Below, in pieces: positions 1-42,276 of a stretch of DNA of 42,276 nt. The notes under the pieces were generated by a model that saw nothing but the letters and a program-made list of their open reading frames with translations, was not told where the DNA came from and did no database searches. Within the stretch, counting starts at the first letter, position 1. Every line of letters starts with the position of its first letter. Position numbers and translations under genes: made by a program. Source of the DNA: a virus; the IMG/VR virus record IMGVR_UViG_3300045993_000119, positions 1 to 42,276 of that record. The stretch is one strand, 5' to 3'.

Positions 1-127
1 CCTTGCAGTTAGTTGTGCAAAATACGGGCTAGAAACTTGTGAAGTTGGAGGCTCGTAACCAAACGTAATTGAATCGCCAACGAACAAAGTGCTTTGAAAA
101 GCATCTTGAAATGTGCGACCTATGGCA
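1..127. repeat. Exact 127-bp terminal direct repeat (left copy)
   Basis: Identical base for base to 42150-42276. It lies inside the tail-fibre reading frame, and joining the two copies keeps that frame open, so it most likely marks an assembler-closed circular molecule rather than a biological end. The length of 127 equals a common maximum assembly k-mer, which supports the artefact reading. A short packaged terminal redundancy cannot be excluded from sequence alone. Confidence 0.95.
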
Positions 128-951
128 GCTTGAAATGTATTCCAGATACCAGCCAAAACTAAATGCTCGGCAGCAGATAAAGCGCGAGGTAACACAAACC
201 AACCGCCATAATAAGCAGCATCACTATTAGGGAAATAGAGGGTATTACTATTAAAAGTTCCTGTTACCCCCGCTTTGCTTGATAGCCCGTAGCCATTGCG
301 ATAATGAGCCACCGTAGATCCGCCACTACCAGCAAGAAACCCACTGTTATTAGCTTCTATTAAAGATGAACTACTATCTAAGAAAGCGCTAACATAACCA
401 CCTCTATTATTAAAAGTTTGTCTGGTAAACCCTAGGTCAGTCAACGCGCCATTTACACCGCAAATATTAGCAGCATTAGCCCCAAATCCTTTGGCGGGGG
501 ATTCAACGCGAAAAGTGCCAATAGTTACATTATTTTTTTGGAATTGATTAGCATTTACACCAACATCAACCTTTGCGCCGCTACCAGCAAAGGTTTCGCT
601 AAGTCCCAAAAAGGAGTAATTACCAGAATTAAATACAGTGCTAGTTGCCAACAATGTACTGCTGGAGTGACATCGTAGTTTAACAAGGCACGATGAGAAT
701 CCACCCATGATTAAGCCAATATCAGCATCGTTCCAAAAGTTATTTGCTTTGAGGTCAGTAATTAAAGGAAGGAGTGCTGCTTGTTCGCCAGCAGTTATAG
801 TCCCACCTTGAGCAGCAGCCCTACTTACGAAGTCAGCAATGTCAGCAGGTGTCGTATCAGGTGGTGTTCCTGACACATTTCTTACGACCATTGCAGACCG
901 TCTTGACAAACGACTTAACAGTTTTCTAGTGTAGACATCTTGTAAATCCAC
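1..951 (-). CDS. Tail fibre/spike protein, N-terminal part (continues across the contig junction)
   Basis: Reading leftward from GTG at 951 (AGAGG about 8 bases upstream, one base past the stop of the preceding gene) the frame is open to base 1 and continues in frame at 42149 down to 41130, giving a protein of about 656 residues. The N-terminus carries LQDVYTRKLLSRLSR, a motif also present twice in the 61-residue protein just upstream, and may dock the fibre on the virion. Roughly residues 70-270 are Gly/Ser/Asn-rich and beta-like and end in a segment resembling the LSAAE...L..I...F..AIGR stretch often found after LamG/concanavalin-type lectin domains in phage adhesins. The SGNH hydrolase domain begins with FVGDSITFGYE at base 87. 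An internal ATG at codon 21 is an alternative start with a poorer ribosome site. Confidence 0.8.
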   Translation of the reverse strand, partial: MDLQDVYTRKLLSRLSRRSAMVVRNVSGTPPDTTPADIADFVSRAAAQGGTITAGEQAALLPLITDLKANNFWNDADIGLIMGGFSSCLVKLRCHSSSTLLATSTVFNSGNYSFLGLSETFAGSGAKVDVGVNANQFQKNNVTIGTFRVESPAKGFGANAANICGVNGALTDLGFTRQTFNNRGGYVSAFLDSSSSLIEANNSGFLAGSGGSTVAHYRNGYGLSSKAGVTGTFNSNTLYFPNSDAAYYGGWFVLPRALSAAEHLVLAGIWNTFQAAIGRTFQDAFQSTLFVGDSITFGYEPPTSQVSSPYFAQLTAR

Positions 952-952
952 G

Positions 953-1138
953 TTATACCTCTACTGTGACGATTGCTGCTTTTGCAGACAAACGTGTTTG
1001 TATTTTTAAGGCATACAACTCTTGCAGTGTAGTTGGTTTAGTGATTGTTGGTGTAGCGGCAGATTGCACCACCAATGCGGTACTACCTGTTTCGCGCGTA
1101 ACTACTTTTCGTGAGTATATTTCTTGTGCTGTTGCCAT
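953..1138 (-). CDS. Small virion-associated protein with two copies of the fibre N-terminal motif
   Basis: A 61-residue protein, unknown family. It holds two copies of a motif of the form Q-E-[IL]-Y-x-x-K-x-x-T-R at about residues 5-15 and 39-49. The next gene downstream, the tail fibre, begins with a third copy (LQDVYTRKLLSRLSR). The shared peptide suggests both proteins bind the same virion surface, for instance a tail tubular protein, but that is inference. ATG at 1138 was chosen because the longer frame upstream runs through a terminator hairpin. There is no clear ribosome site. Translation stops one base before the GTG of the fibre gene, so the two are probably translationally coupled. 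Confidence 0.7.
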   Translation of the reverse strand: MATAQEIYSRKVVTRETGSTALVVQSAATPTITKPTTLQELYALKIQTRLSAKAAIVTVEV

Positions 1139-1166
1139 AAAAGAAAGGCGGTACAGACGCACCGCC
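1139..1166 (-). terminator. Rho-independent terminator within the late arm
   Basis: On the leftward strand GGCGGT and ACCGCC pair around an 8-base loop (arms 1161-1166 and 1147-1152) and are followed directly by TTTCTTTT. It sits between the 162-residue protein and the 61-residue protein, ahead of the fibre, terminase and capsid genes. It could be a partial terminator that lowers distal transcription, as in T7 after gene 10. Confidence 0.65.
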
Positions 1167-1176
1167 ATAAGGTTTA

Positions 1177-1665
1177 TTAGATTGCAAGAGTGATGTATTC
1201 GGTGATGCGCACTCTCCATTGAATGACTTTAGCGGCAACACCTGTAACAGTTGGAATAATCGACTTGCTTGTGTTGTTATAAGTGAAAACCACACCAGCA
1301 GAGGCACTCCCAACAAAGTATTGTGAAAAAGGATTGGCGTCAGTTGATGCTGCATCCCATTCTAGAGTTGTACCACTGGCGGCGACCGTATCTGCAATGT
1401 TTGTTAACGACAGTGCAAAACGTCCACTTGCGTGAACACTACCATCCGTTACGTTATATGCGACGAATAAACCTTGCGCAATTATAACTATACCTTTTGG
1501 AACAATCAGTCGGTTGTCTGAATTTGCACCTCCATCAATGAAGATTTCAGTAGCGGTTGCGTCAGTTGTTTTACCTGACCATGTGATGTTAGCGAAGTTG
1601 CGCTGGCGTAGTGCATCACCTAAAAGTGCACCCTTCTTCTCTTGTAGTGTACTAGGGACTGTCAT
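1177..1665 (-). CDS. Putative structural protein, beta-rich (decoration or tail accessory)
   Basis: A 162-residue protein. ATG at 1665 is preceded by a strong AAGGAG site at 5-base spacing. The sequence is Ala/Thr/Ser/Val-rich with alternating hydrophobics, one Cys-free beta-type domain, and ends with VIQWRVRITEYI, a pattern common at the end of small phage head-decoration and fibre proteins. Its neighbours are virion genes and a terminator follows directly, an arrangement that would favour high expression. No specific family was recognised; a decoration protein, a fibre accessory or a head-fibre protein are all possible. It overlaps the end of the upstream gene by 14 bases. Confidence 0.7.
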   Translation of the reverse strand: MTVPSTLQEKKGALLGDALRQRNFANITWSGKTTDATATEIFIDGGANSDNRLIVPKGIVIIAQGLFVAYNVTDGSVHASGRFALSLTNIADTVAASGTTLEWDAASTDANPFSQYFVGSASAGVVFTYNNTSKSIIPTVTGVAAKVIQWRVRITEYITLAI

Positions 1666-2080
1666 ACATGCTCCTTGTGCGTGTTAATTGACTTATTAAG
1701 TTTGTGCGTGATGCATCTGTCATAGCAGTGTTGCGCTTCTGTTTTTCTTTGTTGGTGTTAGCAACGTTGTCGGTAAGCGCCGACTGTTGTTGTTGAACAC
1801 CACCAAACAGGGAAGCTTCATTCTGTGCCGCCGCAGTGTTGGCGCGCTCAAGTAAAGATGACCGCCGTCCAGCGTTGTCAGCGATTTGCGTCTCTCGCTG
1901 TTGGGAGGAAAGTTGTCTATTTTGCGCCTCTTTTTGGAGCTCGAACTGGCGGTCTTGTAGCGCCATCTGTTGTTGCTGGCTTTCCTTCTGTAACGCTGTC
2001 GTCACGTCGAATTGCTTCTGTCTCTGGTCTAACTCCGCTTGAGTCGGACCACTCACTACTGGTGCTGGCGCTGAACCCAT
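1652..2080 (-). CDS. Gln-rich coiled-coil protein, probable virion or assembly protein
   Basis: A 142-residue protein that starts at ATG 2080 behind a strong AGGAG site. After a short Pro/Ala N-terminus, about residues 15-110 are extremely rich in Gln, Arg, Glu and Ala in heptad-like spacing (runs such as ESQQQQ and VQQQQS), which predicts a long coiled coil. There are no membrane segments or enzymatic motifs. Composition resembles the helical internal virion protein encoded at 29925-30983, so a structural or ejection role is possible. The first 164 bases overlap the preceding gene in another frame. Small terminase subunits are also small and helical, but nothing specific supports that. Confidence 0.65.
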   Translation of the reverse strand: MGSAPAPVVSGPTQAELDQRQKQFDVTTALQKESQQQQMALQDRQFELQKEAQNRQLSSQQRETQIADNAGRRSSLLERANTAAAQNEASLFGGVQQQQSALTDNVANTNKEKQKRNTAMTDASRTNLISQLTRTRSMYDSP

Positions 2081-2243
2081 TGTCTTTCTCCTCTAAGGTA
2101 GGGTGTCTTGTACGTCCGTAAATATGTCCTTGGCGCGACTTCTTCAACATCATTCGCACCTCATCGCGGTTGACTTCATCAACTGCTTCTTCAGGCGGAG
2201 TTTGGCTGCGCAACTTCATATAGATGTCATTTGCGTCTCTCAT
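1917..2243 (-). CDS. Unknown small protein with long out-of-frame overlap
   Basis: The ATG at 2243 overlaps the stop of the Tad2-like gene (ATGA) and has GGAG upstream. The first 55 residues look like an ordinary folded segment (acidic and basic helices, with DEVNRDEVRMMLKKS). From about residue 55 onward the frame runs inside the 142-residue gene and becomes a Ser/Pro/Arg/Thr-rich low-complexity tail. A stop (TAG) lies directly upstream of the 142-residue gene in its own frame, so a frameshift fusion of the two is not supported. The N-terminal half is probably the functional part; the tail may be tolerated overlap. Confidence 0.55.
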   Translation of the reverse strand: MRDANDIYMKLRSQTPPEEAVDEVNRDEVRMMLKKSRQGHIYGRTRHPTLEEKDNGFSASTSSEWSDSSGVRPETEAIRRDDSVTEGKPATTDGATRPPVRAPKRGAK

Positions 2244-2440
2244 CGTAATATACTCCAATCCTCTGCTAGTAAATCAACTTGCGCGACTAACCACTGAGTT
2301 GGCTTCTGTCGCAATGTCATCATAGCAATGTGTGGCACATCATCACCAGTAAGGTAGATGTACACCCCATTCCAACCAACGCGCGCAACTTTGTCACCAA
2401 GTTTCATCATGTGCAGCGCTTGTGAGAAATCCATCATCAT
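2240..2440 (-). CDS. tad2: Tad2-like anti-Thoeris protein (DUF2829)
   Basis: A 66-residue protein with the DUF2829 layout: MDFSQALHMMKLGDKVARVGWNG at the start (the FxxALxxLKxGxKVxRxGWNG pattern), a central YIYLTGDD...I strand pair, and W...QVDLLAEDWSIL at the end (the W.PSQ.DLLAEDW pattern). Proteins of this family (Tad2) sequester the cyclic-ADPR-type signal of Thoeris defence, and some bind other cyclic nucleotides; that function is inferred from family resemblance. It is the first gene of the leftward arm, next to the divergent non-coding region. There is no visible ribosome site before the ATG triplet at 2440, 2437 and 2434, so the exact start among these is uncertain. Confidence 0.8.
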   Translation of the reverse strand: MMMDFSQALHMMKLGDKVARVGWNGVYIYLTGDDVPHIAMMTLRQKPTQWLVAQVDLLAEDWSILR

Positions 2441-2551
2441 TATTAATTGAACGCGTACGTCTGCGACATAGTATTTGACACCTCCCAGAGCCTCTTATAT
2501 AAGATGGTACTAAGTCAAAAGAAAAGCGGAGCGCTATTAATATAATATAAT

Positions 2552-2588
2552 AAAGAGTAGTGCACAATTTATACGCTACTCTTTCTTT
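2552..2588. terminator. Terminator-like hairpin in the divergent region
   Basis: AAAGAGTAG (2552-2560) and CTACTCTTT (2576-2584) form a perfect 9-bp stem with a 15-base loop. On the plus strand it is followed by CTTTG, on the minus strand by an AT-rich run (ATTATATTATATT). It may insulate the arms or end a short transcript. Confidence 0.5.
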
Positions 2589-2730
2589 GTTGAGGTGTAG
2601 TATTGTGAGCGATACCGCATATATTTTTAATGGTGTAAATAAGATGTGCAAATTTCGCATAAATTTTGAATGAACTTAGTAAAGTAAAGTAAAAGTCATC
2701 GTTCCCCCTACAGCTTTTACACCACTTACA

Positions 2731-2754
2731 CGCATACACATGAGGGTGTATGCG
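2731..2754. other. Strong inverted repeat in the divergent region
   Basis: CGCATACAC (2731-2739) and GTGTATGCG (2746-2754) form a perfect 9-bp stem with a 6-base loop. There is no T run, so a terminator is unlikely. It could be a protein-binding site or part of an origin. Seen directly; function unknown. Confidence 0.6.
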
Positions 2755-3020
2755 CGTAAGCGCACGTAAAGCAGGCGCACACGATACGCGTACGCATAGA
2801 CGCGCGCACAAGCTTAAGCACAGCGTCTGAGGGAGTGTAAGACGTCTGAAACACTGTGAGGGTATAGAGTAACGATGCAATAAATTATCCACTACGTACA
2901 CACATCACACACACGCATGATATAAACTACACACACACGCAATTACCTACACAAAAGCCAACAACATGAGAAATAGATAGTAGACTAGGAGCGCGTTGCA
3001 GACTTTCTTTTACAAAACGC

Positions 3021-3049
3021 TTGACAATACCAGCAATTAGAGTTAACTT
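3021..3049 (+). promoter_or_regulatory. Host-type promoter for the rightward early arm
   Basis: A perfect TTGACA (-35, 3021-3026) is followed after 17 bases by TAACTT (-10, 3044-3049). It lies about 30 bases before the chosen ATG of the first early gene. The same TTG could be read as a start codon of a longer frame, but the promoter reading fits better. The -10 is a moderate match. Confidence 0.6.
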
Positions 3050-3080
3050 AGGTACATCGAACAACACAGGACACAACGAC

Positions 3081-3548
3081 ATGAACGCACTACATCTTCT
3101 TTCACTACGCTACATCGCACTACTCGAACTACTTGCACTTGAGCGTATTACGTCTCGCTTGCGTTGCTTCTCTGATGACTACTGCACAATTAACAACAAC
3201 ATTGTTCATGCCATTACGACAGGTTACGACAAGCTCTACTACTCTAACCGTACCTACTGGTTAGAGTGTCGCAAAGCATTGTCTGAGTGGTACGCTGAGA
3301 CATACCTGATAGAAGGCGATAACGAGTTTGTATTTGACTTTGTTGCAGTACGTAAACTGACTTTGCGTTCTATCCAAATTGTGCTACAAACGCACTCTAT
3401 TCTAGATGACAACAGCTACCACGAACTTGCTAACCTGCTTGACGACATCCTTGTAGGGTATAAGTCAGCTACACACAAAACCAAGAAACTGTATCCAGTG
3501 CGTAGTAAGCATCGTATGGTTAAAATGTACTCACAAGAAGTAGTATAG
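3081..3548 (+). CDS. Unknown early protein (155 aa)
   Basis: First gene of the rightward arm. ATG at 3081 is preceded by AGGA at 9-base spacing and gives 155 residues; a longer frame from TTG 3021 would start inside the promoter. The protein is mostly helical and Leu/Tyr-rich (HLLSLRYIALLELLALER near the start), with a basic C-terminus (KTKKLYPVRSKHRMVKMY). No family was recognised. Position suggests a host-takeover role, which is inference only. Confidence 0.65.
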   Translation: MNALHLLSLRYIALLELLALERITSRLRCFSDDYCTINNNIVHAITTGYDKLYYSNRTYWLECRKALSEWYAETYLIEGDNEFVFDFVAVRKLTLRSIQIVLQTHSILDDNSYHELANLLDDILVGYKSATHKTKKLYPVRSKHRMVKMYSQEVV

Positions 3549-3553
3549 ACTAC

Positions 3554-3584
3554 TTGACAACGCGCTCTCATTCTGATTTACTAT
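3554..3584 (+). promoter_or_regulatory. Possible promoter before the paralogue pair
   Basis: A perfect TTGACA at 3554-3559 is followed after 19 bases by TACTAT (3579-3584). The spacer is two bases longer than ideal, so this is a weak candidate. It lies 28 bases before the next gene. Confidence 0.35.
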
Positions 3585-3611
3585 TCACATACACTTTCAA
3601 GGTAATAACAA

Positions 3612-14607: not shown

Positions 14608-14893
14608 ACAGCAGCAACAGAAAGAACCTTGTGGTTGGGTGTCTCTTTGGGACGGCGATGGCGGAACTCGCCCTGCATTGAAAGGTGTAGTTAAGTTCAC
14701 TGTTGAAGACATCCAAGAAATGCTTCGTCAAGCATACGAGCAAGGTGTTGATGACTACGACCAAATGTCTATGGACATCGCGTTGTGGGAAGAAGAAGAC
14801 GGAGGTGGTAACTACCCTACTTACAAAGGTAAGCTGTCTGTTCGTAAACCAAAAGAAGAGACACCCAAAAGAGGTAGGAATACACGTAGATGA
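14600..14893 (+). CDS. Unknown small protein between annealing protein and nuclease
   Basis: 97 residues, starting at TTG 14600 inside the end of the previous gene with a strong GAGGAG site about 9 bases upstream. The core GWVSLWDGDGGTRPALKGVV resembles a small beta barrel; the C-terminus is basic (KPKEETPKRGRNTRR). A single-strand DNA-binding or recombination accessory role is suggested only by position. Confidence 0.6.
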   Translation: MDKQQQQKEPCGWVSLWDGDGGTRPALKGVVKFTVEDIQEMLRQAYEQGVDDYDQMSMDIALWEEEDGGGNYPTYKGKLSVRKPKEETPKRGRNTRR

Positions 14894-15702
14894 TTTTTAA
14901 GCGGCTTACTGAATACTGGAACACGGATGAGTGTGGTGCTTACCCAACTGACGCGGCGACTGTCGCTAAGGTTGTTGCCTTCTTTAGTAAAGGATTAGCT
15001 AGTTCTATCGCTGATGTTTTATTTAGGCAGCAAGACGGACACTACCTCAGAGTGTCCGCTATGGGTAAGCCGCTTATTCTTTTGTGTCTCGCGAAGATTG
15101 GGTATAAAGAACCAGACAACATCTCGTTTAAGTTGCGCTGGATATTCATGCTTGGTCATGTGTTTGAAGCGTTCGTGATGTGTGTCATATTTCTATTGAA
15201 GTATGACATACACTCAGCGCAAGACGAGATTGACTTTGGTAGTGTAAAAGGTCACATCGACTTTATGGTTGATGAGACTGTAGTGGAAGTGAAGACAATG
15301 AGTGACAGATACTTTACAGATTTCTGCCGCAAACAGAATGACGACAGAGGATACCTCACTCAACTTCACATCTACTGTCACGCCAAAGGTACAAAGCGCG
15401 GCGTATTCTTGGTAATCAACAAAGCCACGAACGAGTTGCGCGAATTACCTCTTGTGTGGGATGACCGATACATCACCCGCGCTCGTCTTGTCGTTGACCA
15501 TTACAACTCTTGTGACAACATTGACTACATTATCGATAACCTTAACGCACCTGAGTGCGTGCCTGAGAAGAAAGGTATGACAATGACAGGCAACTTTCTT
15601 GTACCTCCATCTATGAGGTATTCTTATTTCCGCGATGCGTTCTATCATTGGAACGGACAAACAGCGACTTACATACCACATTGGTATAGGAGTTTTGAAT
15701 GA
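14890..15702 (+). CDS. RecB/Cas4-type PD-(D/E)XK nuclease
   Basis: 270 residues. Nuclease landmarks in order: LGHVFE (the conserved His/Glu helix), GHIDFMVDET (Asp), VVEVKTM (E-x-K) and YLTQLHIY (the Q-L-x-x-Y motif typical of RecB-like and Cas4-like exonucleases). It probably resects DNA ends to load the annealing protein and may replace T7 gp6 exonuclease. No Fe-S cysteine cluster is evident. The start overlaps the previous gene by 4 bases with AGGTAGGA upstream. Confidence 0.8.
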   Translation: MIFKRLTEYWNTDECGAYPTDAATVAKVVAFFSKGLASSIADVLFRQQDGHYLRVSAMGKPLILLCLAKIGYKEPDNISFKLRWIFMLGHVFEAFVMCVIFLLKYDIHSAQDEIDFGSVKGHIDFMVDETVVEVKTMSDRYFTDFCRKQNDDRGYLTQLHIYCHAKGTKRGVFLVINKATNELRELPLVWDDRYITRARLVVDHYNSCDNIDYIIDNLNAPECVPEKKGMTMTGNFLVPPSMRYSYFRDAFYHWNGQTATYIPHWYRSFE

Positions 15703-17234
15703 CAGACGATATAAAGAAACTTCTTAAGTGGCAAGACTCTGAGGAGTGTAGAAAAATCACAGAACAGAAAGCGTCAGTGTTGTACGACAAACCTTACGTA
15801 CCACTGTACATTCCGTCCGAACACTTCAAACAACAATACTTCGGAGACTTTCAACAGCAGGAGAAGTGTGTGATTATAAAAGACGAACACATCAGCATAC
15901 TGTCAGACGATAGAAGGGCAGAAGCTTATCACGCGCTAGACAGGTTCCTTATAGGTTATAAGCCAGACCCACGCGGTCACAACTTGTCTGTAGGTGAATG
16001 GTACTTTGACAAACACCCTGTTAGTGGTGACTACTTTCTAACTTGTAGTACAAACAACACTAGAGTAATCTATGGACGTAATCGCCGCCTAGACCACCTA
16101 CCACACTACCAAGCAGCGCTCGACCTCGCTGTAAAAGAGATACAGCGCAACTTTACCACACTTGACTATTCAGTTGGTGGTGTTGCAATGCAGTTCATCA
16201 AAAACGACAACGGTGACAAAGTTCTCATCAACAGCGTACAAGAACCACTTCCTGCGCTCGACTTGACAGAAGAGGAGTATAAAGGTACTATTGAAATAGT
16301 TGATAAACACTTCTCTCACAGCCAATACAGACGTGGCGGTTTTCATAAAGTACATCTTCGCACTCAACATGTTGAACATGTTGAGGTGTGGTGTTGGGAC
16401 AACAACGGTGTCATCGAGATTTTAAACCCTTACACAGTGGAAGACACAACAGTGGATTACAACATGGCAAAATACAGACTTCGTAAATCAGACGAGCTTC
16501 TTATCAAAGTTCTCGACAGTGGTAACTCTAACGTGGCACTCCTTCTTGGAAAACCAGGCACAGGCAAGACTTTCTTCACAGACTGTTACGCCAAACGTAC
16601 AGGTGCAGATTACATCTATACCCTTTGTCATGATGGCACTAACTCAGAAGATTTGTTTTACAGCATCAATGTTGGTAAAGCAGTTTTGCGTGAAGCTAAC
16701 AGTAGCGATGAGATTTACCAAGAAGGTGTCCTTCTCCGCGCTGTTCGCGCATCCAAAACCAAACAGGTAGTGGTGTGTATTGACGAAATTGACAAAGCAT
16801 CTAAGCGCACAGAAAACTTGTTTCTCGACTTTGCGGAAACATATCGTGTACCTTTCCTTGGCACACAAGAACAAGGTGTAAAAGAAAACATCGTGCTATT
16901 CTTTACCTCTAACGGATATCGCCCACACAGCGAAGCGTTCTTGAGAAGATGTTACCGACACCACTTCGACTTTCTACCACGCGCTGTAGAGGTGCAGTTA
17001 ATCGGCGGTTCGTATGCCACAGCAATTGTGGACGCTCTTACAGCGATTCGGGAAGGAGGTGCTTCTTCTCCAAGTATTAAAGAAGGTATGTTGTTTTCAC
17101 ACAACTTACAGTTTGCCGCTAACGTAAAAGATGTTGAGTGTCTGATGTATGCACACCTGTGCAAAGAACCAGAGGATATGGAGATTCTTCAGAAAGGTAA
17201 TTTCGCTAACAAGTTTATCACGAAGGTATTTTAA
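15699..17234 (+). CDS. MoxR-type AAA+ ATPase
   Basis: 511 residues. The N-terminal ~260 residues are unrecognised. The ATPase has Walker A GKPGTGKT (284-291), Walker B VVVCIDEID (357-365), sensor 1 asparagine in FFTSNG (about 405) and paired arginines in FLRRCYRHHF (about 417-418), all typical of MoxR/CobS-like ATPases. These act as chaperones that remodel or insert metal in targets recognised by a VWA partner, and a VWA-like protein is encoded directly downstream. The stop and start between nuclease and this gene overlap by 4 bases; AGGAG precedes the ATG. Confidence 0.85.
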   Translation: MTDDIKKLLKWQDSEECRKITEQKASVLYDKPYVPLYIPSEHFKQQYFGDFQQQEKCVIIKDEHISILSDDRRAEAYHALDRFLIGYKPDPRGHNLSVGEWYFDKHPVSGDYFLTCSTNNTRVIYGRNRRLDHLPHYQAALDLAVKEIQRNFTTLDYSVGGVAMQFIKNDNGDKVLINSVQEPLPALDLTEEEYKGTIEIVDKHFSHSQYRRGGFHKVHLRTQHVEHVEVWCWDNNGVIEILNPYTVEDTTVDYNMAKYRLRKSDELLIKVLDSGNSNVALLLGKPGTGKTFFTDCYAKRTGADYIYTLCHDGTNSEDLFYSINVGKAVLREANSSDEIYQEGVLLRAVRASKTKQVVVCIDEIDKASKRTENLFLDFAETYRVPFLGTQEQGVKENIVLFFTSNGYRPHSEAFLRRCYRHHFDFLPRAVEVQLIGGSYATAIVDALTAIREGGASSPSIKEGMLFSHNLQFAANVKDVECLMYAHLCKEPEDMEILQKGNFANKFITKVF

Positions 17235-17235
17235 C

Positions 17236-18366
17236 ATGAAATATTATTACTACGTTGAAGATTTATTTTCGTGCCGTTGGGATGAGTGTGACGAAGACAT
17301 TTACCTTCAATCTCGTTCTAGAGGTGTTGCAACTAAATCAATCGATGACGAGCCTCACACTCCACTCAAAGACGCAGCACTAGAAGAGTTGCGCGACAAA
17401 GCACCTGCTATCATTAGTGAACTCTTTGACGCTCTCGTTGACGAAGAAGACCTCAAAGCAACACCTCAACAGGTGGAGTATTACATTGACGAAGAACTCA
17501 TCAACCCTGATTATAATGAGTTTGATAGCGGTGAAGAAGAGGTGTCAAACGATGTCATCGCACCTCCTGCAGCAGATAGCAGCACCAACCTCAACAGATG
17601 GTTTCCGCGCGCCGCTATTTCACTACCTGACGGAAAAGTAGACTTTAACGACATTAAGCGTATACAACGTGCCATCTACACTCTTATGGAAAGTGGTATG
17701 GTTCACGACAGCGACCAGCTTGATGGTGACAAGTTTGTGGCGCGGCTTGAGACTCACCGCGATGTCAATATCAACACTCACCAGAAAAACCGCGCCAATC
17801 CTTCTATACTCTTTCTGCCTGACTTCAGTCCTTCGTGCTGCTCTTATGCTAGTTTATACAACACCATTCTTGGAGGTGTCTCTTCTATTCGCGACGATTT
17901 TAACGTTGTGAGCGCACCTCACTTCAATGGACTACCAAAGTGGTTCGTCGTTAATGGTGTGCGCGACAAGAAAGCGATGGAGATGTACGACAGAGACTTT
18001 ATCGACGATGACCTCGGCTGGGGCAAAGTAACTGAGCGCGAAGATGCACAGAAGTTCTACGCCGCCGTACTTGGGAAGAGGTGTTCTTTATACGACATCA
18101 GCACCGTTATCGTCGCTGGTGACATGGATGGTACGTGGTGTTACAAACTGTTGCTAGACAATCCGCAGATTGAGCGCATGATTTGGGTAGACGGCTCATA
18201 CTGGGAAGGTGAAAAGCAGATGAACAACCGCACATCACAGTTGTTGTACAATCTCGACATTACTGGTGCAAAGCGCACACTTGCCAAAAGTAAATTAATT
18301 TACTGGAGTGGTGTAAAGAAGGTTGAAGATTTTGTCCGCGCTATCGAAAGGAGTAACTCATGGTAG
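17236..18366 (+). CDS. VWA-like (CobT/ViaA-type) partner of the MoxR ATPase
   Basis: 376 residues from ATG 17236 (GAAGGT upstream); a longer frame from inside the ATPase gene was not used. The N-terminal half is acidic (DEEDLKATPQ, ELINPDYNEFDSGEEE), as in CobT. The C-terminal half looks like a VWA domain: ILFLPDFSPSCCSY carries a D-x-S-x-S metal-site motif, VIVAGDMDGTW a further acidic strand, and RMIWVDGSYW a late strand. VWA domains present substrates to MoxR ATPases. It has five copies of the heptamer GAGGTGT/ACACCTC in 1.1 kb. The substrate is unknown. Confidence 0.7.
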   Translation: MKYYYYVEDLFSCRWDECDEDIYLQSRSRGVATKSIDDEPHTPLKDAALEELRDKAPAIISELFDALVDEEDLKATPQQVEYYIDEELINPDYNEFDSGEEEVSNDVIAPPAADSSTNLNRWFPRAAISLPDGKVDFNDIKRIQRAIYTLMESGMVHDSDQLDGDKFVARLETHRDVNINTHQKNRANPSILFLPDFSPSCCSYASLYNTILGGVSSIRDDFNVVSAPHFNGLPKWFVVNGVRDKKAMEMYDRDFIDDDLGWGKVTEREDAQKFYAAVLGKRCSLYDISTVIVAGDMDGTWCYKLLLDNPQIERMIWVDGSYWEGEKQMNNRTSQLLYNLDITGAKRTLAKSKLIYWSGVKKVEDFVRAIERSNSW

Positions 18367-18533
18367 GTGTAAGAATCCTTCACGTTTACGCGCACTTGAT
18401 GTTCCGCGCTGTCTTGTACGGTTTTGACGATGAGTGTATTAAACTAGGCTTGCTAAGGTACTACGACAATTATATGGTGTGGAGCATAATCTGCGTACAC
18501 CTCAACTTCTATGAACTAGATTTAATAGTGTAA
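18360..18533 (+). CDS. Small protein (57 aa) at the end of the rightward arm
   Basis: ATG 18360 overlaps the end of the VWA gene by 7 bases and has an excellent AAGGAG site 7 bases upstream. It encodes 57 residues beginning MVGVRILHVYAHLMFRAVLY, hydrophobic with Tyr/His, ending NFYELDLIV. There may be one amphipathic or membrane-associated helix. No family was recognised. It is followed after three bases by a terminator, so it is the last gene of the MoxR-VWA unit. Confidence 0.65.
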   Translation: MVGVRILHVYAHLMFRAVLYGFDDECIKLGLLRYYDNYMVWSIICVHLNFYELDLIV

Positions 18534-18536
18534 AAG

Positions 18537-18567
18537 AAAGCCGCAGTCATTACGATTGCGGCTTTTG
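18537..18567. terminator. Bidirectional terminator between the converging arms
   Basis: AAAGCCGCA (18537-18545) and TGCGGCTTT (18557-18565) form a perfect 9-bp stem with an 11-base loop. It is followed by TTTTG on the plus strand and TTTCTTTT on the minus strand, so it can stop transcription from both arms. Confidence 0.8.
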
Positions 18568-39580: not shown

Positions 39581-41130
39581 CTAACTTCTCCTCTCTTATT
39601 TACTTTCTGACGTGTTGGTTGTGAAAGCTGCACAATAGCAGACACCACATCCAAACAGTTATCTTCGCTACCTTCTGGATGTTGCCGTAGCTCTTTCACG
39701 AATGGAGTGTTAATTTGCACCCAACTTACTACAAACAACTTGTTAGTTTTTATAAGCGGCTGAAGCGCGTTAGTAATACGCACCTTTTTGTTACCAGTTT
39801 CAGAAATTGTTTTAGTTACGAGCACCTTCCCATATGTGGCGCGTTCTCTTTGTATGGCGTGGGGTAATAATTCACCCACACCTCTAACAAGAATGTTAAC
39901 AACAGTGATGCCGTAATCCGTCGCAAGTTTATAGATACTTTCAATGGTTTCTGAGGTTAGTGTTTTCTTAGACTGTAGATACACCACATACATGTTCAAC
40001 AGTTCGTCTTGTCCGCCAACACCAATAGCAGTCTTGTCTACGCGACCAACTTGTTTACCAGATGCAGGGTCAACAACAAGATGGAGGCGTATTCTTTTTT
40101 GAACACCTCCTCCAACATTAATAATTGCATACCCATCCTTAGTAAAACAAATTTGTGGCGGCGCTATCCAACTGACAGCACCTTCATCAAGGATTACATC
40201 ATCGTCTGAGATGTGTTTGAGTAGGTATTGCGCAAAGAATTTCTTGCGCGACATACGACCCATAAGAGATTCGATGTACGCATCGTTGAACTTCTCTGGG
40301 TAGGTGTATCCGTCAACGTTATCTACACCATTCAAGTAGACGTTCGCCTCGAAGGTGCAGAATTTTAATGTTTGCGCGTTTGCTTCAATGTAACTGTAGT
40401 AATCCCACGGATAATAAGGTGTGCCGATAACGTACATACTGTTACCAACCCACTCACCGAAGGTAGTTGTAACTTGGTCATAAGATGGAGGGTCGAGTAC
40501 GCTGAACGCGTCCATTGCCCAGTCTTTGATTTTGTCCGCCTTTTCTTCGTTGTCACTGTTCTGAAAATCTACCGCATCATCGTTGATAATTAAGTCGTAA
40601 TGCTCTCCAGTGTTGGTGCTTAAAACAGAACCTGCAACAAGTGTAGGTTCTTTAAGTTTCTTTGGGCGTAACACTTGAATTGCTTCGCGCGACCATATTA
40701 TTTTCTTATCCTCCGCTTCAGTGTCTTCGCGGCTGATATTTCTTTTTCTACGTGATGCTGCATCAAGTGACGGCACAAGATTTCCAGAGATATGTTCGCG
40801 TATGTTCCAAACCGCTTCTTGCAATTCTACACTCTCCAAGTATTGTCGCACTTCTCTAATGAACATGCGCGACAAGTCTTTGGTGTTAGTAGAGTATAAG
40901 ATGCGAATATTAGGGTTACGATAAATGCGCCAAAGGATATAAAGTACAAGTAACGTGGACTTTAAATGTCCGCGCGACACCTTCATATACTTTGACGCAT
41001 AAGAGTAATATTCTAATTGCGGTGAACATAACTCGTCCATCATCTCAAAGTGAATCGCAGAGAAATTCTGCGACCCACCCTTGTACTTCAGAGCATCACA
41101 CAACTCCCAAGGGTTATATAGTATACTCAT
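39535..41130 (-). CDS. Terminase large subunit, gp19-like
   Basis: 531 residues. Walker A-type KVSRGHLKSTLL near residue 50-60, Walker B-type YDLIINDDAV (DD in place of DE), coupling-motif region YVIGTPYYPWDYY and nuclease-domain Asp in HLVVDPASGKQ. ATPase that pumps DNA and cuts the concatemer. No small subunit was recognised. The start shares one base with the tail-fibre stop. Slightly shorter than T7 gp19 (586). Confidence 0.9.
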   Translation of the reverse strand: MSILYNPWELCDALKYKGGSQNFSAIHFEMMDELCSPQLEYYSYASKYMKVSRGHLKSTLLVLYILWRIYRNPNIRILYSTNTKDLSRMFIREVRQYLESVELQEAVWNIREHISGNLVPSLDAASRRKRNISREDTEAEDKKIIWSREAIQVLRPKKLKEPTLVAGSVLSTNTGEHYDLIINDDAVDFQNSDNEEKADKIKDWAMDAFSVLDPPSYDQVTTTFGEWVGNSMYVIGTPYYPWDYYSYIEANAQTLKFCTFEANVYLNGVDNVDGYTYPEKFNDAYIESLMGRMSRKKFFAQYLLKHISDDDVILDEGAVSWIAPPQICFTKDGYAIINVGGGVQKRIRLHLVVDPASGKQVGRVDKTAIGVGGQDELLNMYVVYLQSKKTLTSETIESIYKLATDYGITVVNILVRGVGELLPHAIQRERATYGKVLVTKTISETGNKKVRITNALQPLIKTNKLFVVSWVQINTPFVKELRQHPEGSEDNCLDVVSAIVQLSQPTRQKVNKRGEVRCRHLAINTKYGGSL

Positions 41131-42276
41131 TAAAAAGTTTTGTAGTACAAACCTAAAGAATCAAAGCAAACTTGAGCAGAATTAGCAACTAACTGAATCC
41201 CAATTTGCTGCCCGTTATAAGCAGGATTTAATCGAGTATCAAAAGTTGCTCTTGCATAAATAAAATTGGCGGCTGGAGGGGAGGGGGTAATAGTTGAGGC
41301 AATGACTGTAGAGCCAGCAAGTATATTTATTGAATAAGCAACAGGACTTGCAGTAAGGTTAGATTCAGCACAAACAAAAACATAGAAGTCATATATGGTA
41401 TTTGCAAGAATTGTTGCTAAATTTATTTGAGATAATGAACCGCCAGACTGAATATAACCAACTTTTGTACCATTTGGGATTGAAATAAATACTAAATTAC
41501 TAGCCGCATAAACGCCTCTACCGCCAGAGCCAGCATAGGTATAGCCTGATGGTGTAGTAATGGAATAAGATCCAAATGCACCAGCGTCCAAAGGTGTTGC
41601 ATCAGCTTCAAAGCTTGGGTTAGCAATCGTAATGCTATTTAATACTGGTTCGCTTGCAGTAATACAGTCATAGAAAGCATCAGAAATGGAAGTTAGCCCT
41701 GCATTTGTAGGATGTATGCCGTCAAAAAAGTAAGTTGTGTTGTTAGGATTTGAGAGATTGGCTTTATTATCTATTCGTGCTATACCATCGGCTAAAATAC
41801 CATTTGTAAATCTAGCATCAGCTAAAATAGCTGTGGTTAGTAACGGAGCTTGCACATTGTAATTTGCGAGAGATGAAAAAGATGCATAGCTCGATGAAGG
41901 AATCATCGTGCCAACATATACCCTAAATCCTTTGGCTTTTAATGCTGTACAGATACCGATAATACTCGCTAGAACTGTCGCAGCAGAATAACCATAATTT
42001 CCTAAATCATTTGTACCGATAAATAGAAGCACTCTATTATCACGAACAATGGGATAGTACCTCATCAAATACTGGTCAATATTTGCCAACACCTCAAATG
42101 CAGCTTGCCCGATAACCCCAAGCATATAGCGATTTTCACCAAGATAAAGCCTTGCAGTTAGTTGTGCAAAATACGGGCTAGAAACTTGTGAAGTTGGAGG
42201 CTCGTAACCAAACGTAATTGAATCGCCAACGAACAAAGTGCTTTGAAAAGCATCTTGAAATGTGCGACCTATGGCA
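41130..42276 (-). CDS. Tail fibre/spike protein, C-terminal part with SGNH hydrolase domain
   Basis: The frame is open to 42276 and continues, through the terminal repeat, into 1-951. All SGNH blocks are intact: FVGDSITFGYE (catalytic Ser), FIGTNDLG (Asn) and FDGIHPTNAG (Asp and His). Such domains in phage adhesins usually remove acetyl groups from surface polysaccharide. The last ~170 residues begin ITIANPSFEADATPLDAG and end in FDSLGLYYKTF, resembling a galactose-binding-like beta sandwich (NPSFE start). Codon and oligonucleotide use is more AT-rich than in the neighbouring terminase gene, suggesting exchange of the host-recognition module. Confidence 0.85.
   Translation of the reverse strand, partial: AIGRTFQDAFQSTLFVGDSITFGYEPPTSQVSSPYFAQLTARLYLGENRYMLGVIGQAAFEVLANIDQYLMRYYPIVRDNRVLLFIGTNDLGNYGYSAATVLASIIGICTALKAKGFRVYVGTMIPSSSYASFSSLANYNVQAPLLTTAILADARFTNGILADGIARIDNKANLSNPNNTTYFFDGIHPTNAGLTSISDAFYDCITASEPVLNSITIANPSFEADATPLDAGAFGSYSITTPSGYTYAGSGGRGVYAASNLVFISIPNGTKVGYIQSGGSLSQINLATILANTIYDFYVFVCAESNLTASPVAYSINILAGSTVIASTITPSPPAANFIYARATFDTRLNPAYNGQQIGIQLVANSAQVCFDSLGLYYKTF
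42150..42276. repeat. Exact 127-bp terminal direct repeat (right copy)
   Basis: Identical to 1-127. Removing one copy gives a circle of 42,149 bp and restores a single tail-fibre gene. Confidence 0.95.

Follow-up and report, generated by a model that had tools for sequence, protein, structure and literature searches.

The IMG/VR virus record IMGVR_UViG_3300045993_000119, analysed over its whole length of 42,276 bases (hereafter the window, whose numbering is used throughout), carries at the end of its plus-strand operon two adjacent genes predicted to encode a MoxR-clade AAA+ ATPase and an acidic partner protein that probably adopts a VWA fold. Judged from their sequences, the two genes recur side by side in two phage lineages and evolve under purifying selection, a combination that is more than chance would produce. 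The pair may constitute a phage-specific remodelling machine resembling NorQ-NorD, a tentative reading that is weighed below against several rivals.

The 511-residue ATPase possesses all elements of the AAA core, namely Walker A (GKPGTGKT, residue 284), Walker B (VVVCIDEI, 357), sensor 1 (TSN, 403) and an arginine finger (FLRRC, 414), and is matched by the Pfam family AAA_5 at the value listed in Table 1, which bears out the original prediction of a MoxR ATPase with all key residues, made from the DNA alone. Group hidden Markov models (HMMs) scored the phage ATPase cores at 47-56 bits for CoxD and ternary-system ATPases, 38-44 for VMAP and 13-21 for SMV1; MoxR proper (AAA_3) at 5-8 bits and RavA at about 0 left the phage proteins outside both groups. 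Likewise, in the tree a 95/91 branch separates the phage clade and the CoxD, ternary and VMAP ATPases from MoxR proper and RavA; the phage clade has a very long stem, and no single sister group was resolved for it. The motif series TSN...FLRRC is common to the phage and the CoxD/ternary ATPases, and alignment with CoxD-type ATPases shows corresponding segments that may represent the helix-2 insert and the pre-sensor-1 hairpin. The best solved structure in the PDB for a profile of both phage lineages (A7) was NorQ, matched over its full length at 4.1e-9. The protein is accordingly classed as a predicted MoxR-clade ATPase of the CoxD/NorQ side, distinct from MoxR proper, RavA and the N4 type.

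Cyanobacterial genomes match this ATPase with CoxD-CoxE-like pairs and conflict-system pairs, and a Saprospiraceae genome matches equally well. The first cyanobacterial scan, which used the exact pattern GKPGTGKT, was biased toward VMAP ATPases and looked suggestive; an origin from cyanobacterial conflict systems was rejected because a wider search ranked CoxD-type pairs first and the Saprospiraceae match was equal, and for the same reasons the phage ATPase carries no host-specific signal. In Brasilonema and Drouetiella (L025, L026), operons in the style of conflict systems lie by the ATPase, with downstream proteins bearing GUN4+EVE and CHAT+AAA_35 domains. The nearest match in the phage collection, from Acinetobacter phage MD-2021a (L140, CAKLQH020000018.1), was discounted since it sits among bacterial housekeeping genes; aroC, prmB and trpB-like genes flank its CoxD-CoxE-like pair, and the sequence resembles a bacterial chromosome.

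The partner has 376 residues when read from the ATG at 17236 and 405 if an in-frame upstream ATG is used. It is acidic (67 D+E against 43 K+R overall; 24 against 4 in residues 38-120) and carries the motif DFSPS at residues 196-200. In an AlphaFold2 model of its C-terminal domain (residues 175-376; predicted local distance difference test (pLDDT) 75.9, predicted template modelling score 0.78), strands and helices alternate in VWA order, D196 directly follows strand 1, and D296 and D298 directly follow strand 4 (domain residues 114-120). Model and alignment together thus place a D-x-S-x-S motif at the end of strand 1 and an aspartate at the end of strand 4, the arrangement of a metal-ion-dependent adhesion site (MIDAS). 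Among the 50 best PDB fold matches, 12 were VWA or integrin I domains, including NorD in two complexes, alongside many other Rossmann folds; in the viral fold search, 11 of the 50 best were named VWFA/VWA, including ATV ORF892. The model of the full-length protein reached a pLDDT of 53, and the fold search made from it was uninformative. No family in Pfam, PHROGs or NCBIfam matched the partner, no match was found in the whole phage collection, and no relatives were found in bacterial genomes. The protein had been described as CobT-like; its acidity and D-x-S-x-S site stand, but the CobT label does not, as no profile match to CobT was obtained in Pfam or NCBIfam. The proposed VWA nature fared better in structural terms: although no VWA sequence profile matches, the MIDAS-like site, the second aspartate, the strand order and the VWA-rich fold matches make a VWA fold likely.

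Scans of IMG/VR yielded six related contigs besides the window (L001, L002, L003, L007, L008 and L009), and ATPase-partner linkage is kept in all of them. The order exonuclease-ATPase-partner is complete in L002, L003, L007, L008 and L009, while L001 starts inside the ATPase gene; a 4-nt overlap between the exonuclease and ATPase genes recurs in most relatives. In L007, the N-terminus of the ATPase either begins in a different frame or uses a later start codon. Identity among these ATPases is 72-93% in the core and 26-57% in the aligned parts of the N-terminal region. Between the window and L002, the ratio of non-synonymous to synonymous substitution (dN/dS) is 0.08 for the AAA core and 0.36 for the ATPase N-terminal region, 0.12 and 0.25 for the C-terminal and N-terminal halves of the partner, and 0.06 for the exonuclease; against L007, synonymous sites are near saturation and the ratios are rough. 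These values indicate purifying selection on the ATPase core and the C-terminal half of the partner, with the outer regions changing faster.

A second lineage emerged from a profile scan of viral contigs, which returned 13 loci on contigs of 40-205 kb with ATPases 31-35% identical to that of the window across the whole core. These large-phage ATPases have 274-295 residues and lack the N-terminal region of the window protein. In 12 of the 13 the next gene directly encodes a protein of 450-524 residues, and the thirteenth contig ends early in that gene. The large-phage partners share the signature [FI]LPD-x-SPSC ... PHxNG ... GD ... W, and their HMM detects the partners of the window lineage at 2.7e-9 to 1.8e-5, the best of 2000 shuffles reaching 0.16; applied to the window's own proteins, it gives 1.9e-10 for the partner and 0.26 for the next. 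This profile evidence establishes the partners of the two lineages as homologues. Among the positions invariant in both are D196, S198, P199, S200, C201, N231, G232, D296, R314 and W317, whereas the C-terminal tail E-R-[SC]-N-[SN]-W is invariant in the small-phage lineage of the window and is not kept in the large phages. In one contig read over 40 kb (G206), the pair lies between a head-protein-like gene upstream (phrog_2522, 7.8e-4) and a tail-sheath gene downstream (phrog_279, 1.8e-8). The original prediction had staked itself in advance on linkage being conserved in other phages, and for the ATPase and its partner such linkage is found in both lineages.

It did not hold, however, for the three-gene unit then proposed. 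The small third gene, encoding 57 residues, does overlap the partner stop codon, by 7 nt, and precedes a terminator hairpin (Table 1), as had been described. L001-L003 and L009 lack it; its one homologue, in L007, stands behind another gene. The two versions are 67% identical, with dN/dS of about 0.09 and dS near saturation. In L002 (11194-11217) and L003, a remnant of the gene start, ATGGTAGGTGTAA, directly follows the partner gene and continues toward the terminator; it looks like the trace of a deletion. Different small genes occupy the site behind the partner in L007 and L008. The one in L007 (10540-10938) encodes 132 residues and separates the partner gene from the 57-residue gene; it may resemble DUF3310/T7 gp1.7-type proteins, but NCBIfam gave no match. 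A hairpin also lies 3' of the partner gene in L002 and L009. The 57-residue gene is predicted to be a real and constrained but dispensable accessory, and its patchy occurrence reduces the conserved unit to two genes with the exonuclease gene upstream, followed by a variable slot.

The genome that harbours the pair follows the T7-like plan that had been suggested for it. Its terminase is 35-38% and its DNA polymerase 28-31% identical to those of Leptolyngbya, Phormidium, Arthronema and Anabaena phages of the Saffermanviridae group, and its gene order matches Pf-WMP3 and A-4L, with a plus-strand operon converging on a minus-strand operon of virion genes. The plus-strand operon encodes a primase-helicase, a DNA polymerase, a single-stranded DNA-annealing protein (Sak) and a Cas4-like exonuclease, and a ligase gene also lies upstream of the pair. 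By these comparisons, the virus is assigned to an uncultured lineage whose genome is colinear with those of Saffermanviridae cyanophages, and these relatives are what suggests a filamentous cyanobacterium as host. The exonuclease gene is the last plus-strand gene in cultured A-4L, Pf-WMP3 and LPP-2, and one short gene follows it in Arthronema virus TR020; no pair is present in the exonuclease neighbourhood of LPP-2 and TR020, the stretch read in both. Mastigocladus phage CHP58 carries no annotation. A promoter scan gave no excess above shuffled sequences. Elsewhere in the window, a lipase/esterase-like protein is encoded at 41130-42236 on the minus strand (phrog_6102, 5.9e-13), with no match in G208, G209, Pf-WMP3 or A-4L. 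Positions 1-3600 hold short overlapping open reading frames on both strands, most of them without matches in relatives; those at 1177-1665 and 1652-2080 (minus strand) are common to G208 and G209.

Table 1. Features of the window at and around the ATPase-partner pair.
Feature	Position	Strand	Remarks
Cas4-like exonuclease	14890..15702	+	phrog_1990 8.3e-22; stop overlaps ATPase start by 4 nt (ATGA)
Predicted MoxR-clade (CoxD/NorQ-like) AAA+ ATPase, 511 residues	15699..17234	+	AAA_5 6.8e-18; residues 1-255 fast-diverging; AAA core about 255-511
ATPase N-terminal region, variable in sequence and length	15699..16463	+	absent from large-phage homologues; without family match
VWA-like partner, 376 residues	17236..18366	+	acidic N-terminal half and C-terminal MIDAS-like domain (D196-F-S198-P-S200-C201, D296)
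C-terminal VWA-like domain, partner residues 175-376	17758..18363	+	AlphaFold2 model and alignment
Accessory gene, 57 residues, outside the conserved unit	18360..18533	+	67% identical homologue in L007 only
Intrinsic terminator hairpin closing the plus-strand operon	~18536..18566	+	-20.7 kcal/mol, fold z -6.4

With slightly more doubt than belief, we propose that the pair is a phage-specific MoxR-VWA remodelling machine of the NorQD kind that would mature a phage client during infection, virion morphogenesis being slightly favoured. In the published system, NorQ takes a finger of the NorD VWA domain into its ring pore and also contacts the C-terminus of NorD with its post-sensor-1 loop; as ATP is turned over, NorD is twisted (PMC13036017). 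By analogy, the phage ATPase would form a ring, as its family does, and the VWA-like domain of the partner would dock on it, probably through a pore loop and through its C-terminal tail on the post-sensor-1 loop, while ATP turnover would twist the partner. As the large phages have not retained this tail, this detail of the docking is predicted for the window lineage alone. The MIDAS site and the acidic N-terminal half of the partner, possibly helped by the variable region at the ATPase N-terminus, may then hold and remodel the client. We lean slightly towards a client in virion assembly, as against a target in the host or its defences, because the homologous large-phage pair lies among head and tail genes and because viral MoxR-VWA pairs, in an archaeal two-tailed virus and in group 2.2 jumbo phages, have been connected with virion assembly or suggested to serve it (PMC7824862, which cites the archaeal virus).

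Several observations weigh against this proposal. In the window lineage, the pair belongs to a replication-recombination operon and not to the virion operon. In tblastn comparisons, the ATPase and the partner are both absent from the complete genomes of Pf-WMP3 and A-4L, whereas most replication and virion genes of these phages match the window; this marks the pair as a trait of the lineage, located where the operon ends, and because cultured relatives that share the recognisable virion genes do without it, the shared part of the virion cannot need it. In G206, the sole large-phage neighbourhood annotated, the head-gene match is weak (7.8e-4). Profile comparisons of the partner (HMM, hhalign) with CoxE, ViaA, N4 gp25 and one halovirus VWA protein were negative, and its fold searches gave no match at E 0.001, with query-normalised TM scores of at most about 0.5. 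The absence of a VWA sequence match and the many other Rossmann folds among the fold matches would suit a partner from another Rossmann-like family with a chance D-x-S-x-S, its ATPase working unlike NorQD. We regard this as improbable, given MIDAS residues at the right strand ends, fold matches enriched in VWA domains and constant pairing with a MoxR-clade ATPase.

The placement of the pair in the middle operon, its absence from cultured relatives and its fast-changing N-terminal region keep a host or defence target in contention. The pair could remodel or sequester a host complex, possibly one of the MoxR-vWA ternary conflict systems (PMC7159879) common in multicellular cyanobacteria, by mimicking their ATPase/vWA part. 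Its location in the variable terminal part of an early/middle operon, an ATPase N-terminal region that diverges far faster than the core, and an ATPase that groups with the CoxD, ternary and VMAP proteins, of which cyanobacterial genomes hold pairs, would all agree with such a role. On the other hand, the phage branch is very long and shows no special cyanobacterial affinity (the Saprospiraceae match is equal), PADLOC returned no match of note, dN/dS is below 1 throughout, a cyanobacterial host of the window virus is suggested only by its phage relatives, and virion genes surround a homologous pair in a large phage, so that we consider this role conceivable yet rather unlikely. The invariant position directly after the Cas4-like exonuclease gene, with its 4-nt overlap in most relatives, and the Sak, ligase, polymerase and primase-helicase genes upstream would instead suit a machine acting on exonuclease, annealing or replisome proteins of the same operon. 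However, cultured relatives possess the exonuclease and the replication genes but not the pair, and the pair of G206 lies away from recognisable replication genes, which makes this role unlikely. Least probable, and in our view very doubtful, is a NorQD- or CoxDE-like chaperone that would insert metal into a phage or host enzyme. NorQ as best solved match and the CoxD/NorQ branch favour it, but MoxR-VWA pairs also work without inserting metal, and no metalloenzyme client appeared among the window proteins scanned; the specific targets named earlier (cofactor metabolism, ribonucleotide reductase or a defence complex) likewise found no support. Fe-S loading of the Cas4-like exonuclease was rejected, its sequence having no C-terminal cysteine cluster of the Cas4 type.

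A broader and still speculative possibility, which we would rather doubt than accept, is that the pair founds an unrecognised remodelling family of tailed phages with a highly diverged VWA partner (LPDxSPSC type), found in cyanophage-like phages with short tails as well as in large phages with sheathed tails, where it would act as a dedicated chaperone or as a factor in host takeover for one client type common to both. LPDxSPSC provides a signature for a partner family that current libraries miss. N4-like phages keep their MoxR-VWA pair as core genes; being small and present in only some genomes of the same plan, the pair described here offers a clean comparison for finding phage clients.

Compared with known systems, the pair shares with NorQ-NorD and CbbQ-CbbO the combination of a MoxR-clade ATPase and a VWA protein, NorQ as best solved match and a conserved partner C-terminus; it differs in being phage-encoded, in a partner without sequence similarity and in having no nitric oxide reductase or rubisco client. 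CoxD-CoxE and the ternary MoxR-vWA pairs resemble it in ATPase branch, in the TSN...FLRRC motifs and in two adjacent genes of comparable size, whereas the phage branch is separate and very long, and the phage partner is not recognisably CoxE. No third component or effector domains of the VMAP/iSTAND type were found in the window or its relatives. N4-like phages also encode an ATPase and a VWA protein in adjacent core genes (gp24-gp25, about 350 and 380 residues; PMC4193335). By hhalign, the window pair has no similarity to gp24/gp25 beyond the P-loop; the gp25 family is annotated as metallopeptidase or VWA-like, and the window partner has no HExxH. Many gp25 homologues in phage records are named HNH endonuclease and others metallopeptidase or VWA-like, probably through spread misannotation. 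Viral MoxR-VWA pairs further occur in the Bicaudaviridae ATV and SMV1 and in group 2.2 jumbo phages; the SMV1 ATPase, however, groups with RavA, off the phage branch, and its VWA protein is larger, with a classical D-x-S-G-S. The haloviruses HHTV-2 and HCTV-2 have an AAA_5 ATPase akin to that of the large phages (5e-5); a VWA gene lies in the same part of the genome but is not its direct neighbour. The original prediction had considered the system undescribed, and the abstracts and passages searched in the open-licence literature contain no description of this pair; N4-like and jumbo phages, haloviruses and an archaeal two-tailed virus already provide examples of viral MoxR-VWA pairs, so that machines of this kind were known before, but the predicted phage pair family itself is new, phage-specific and unnamed.

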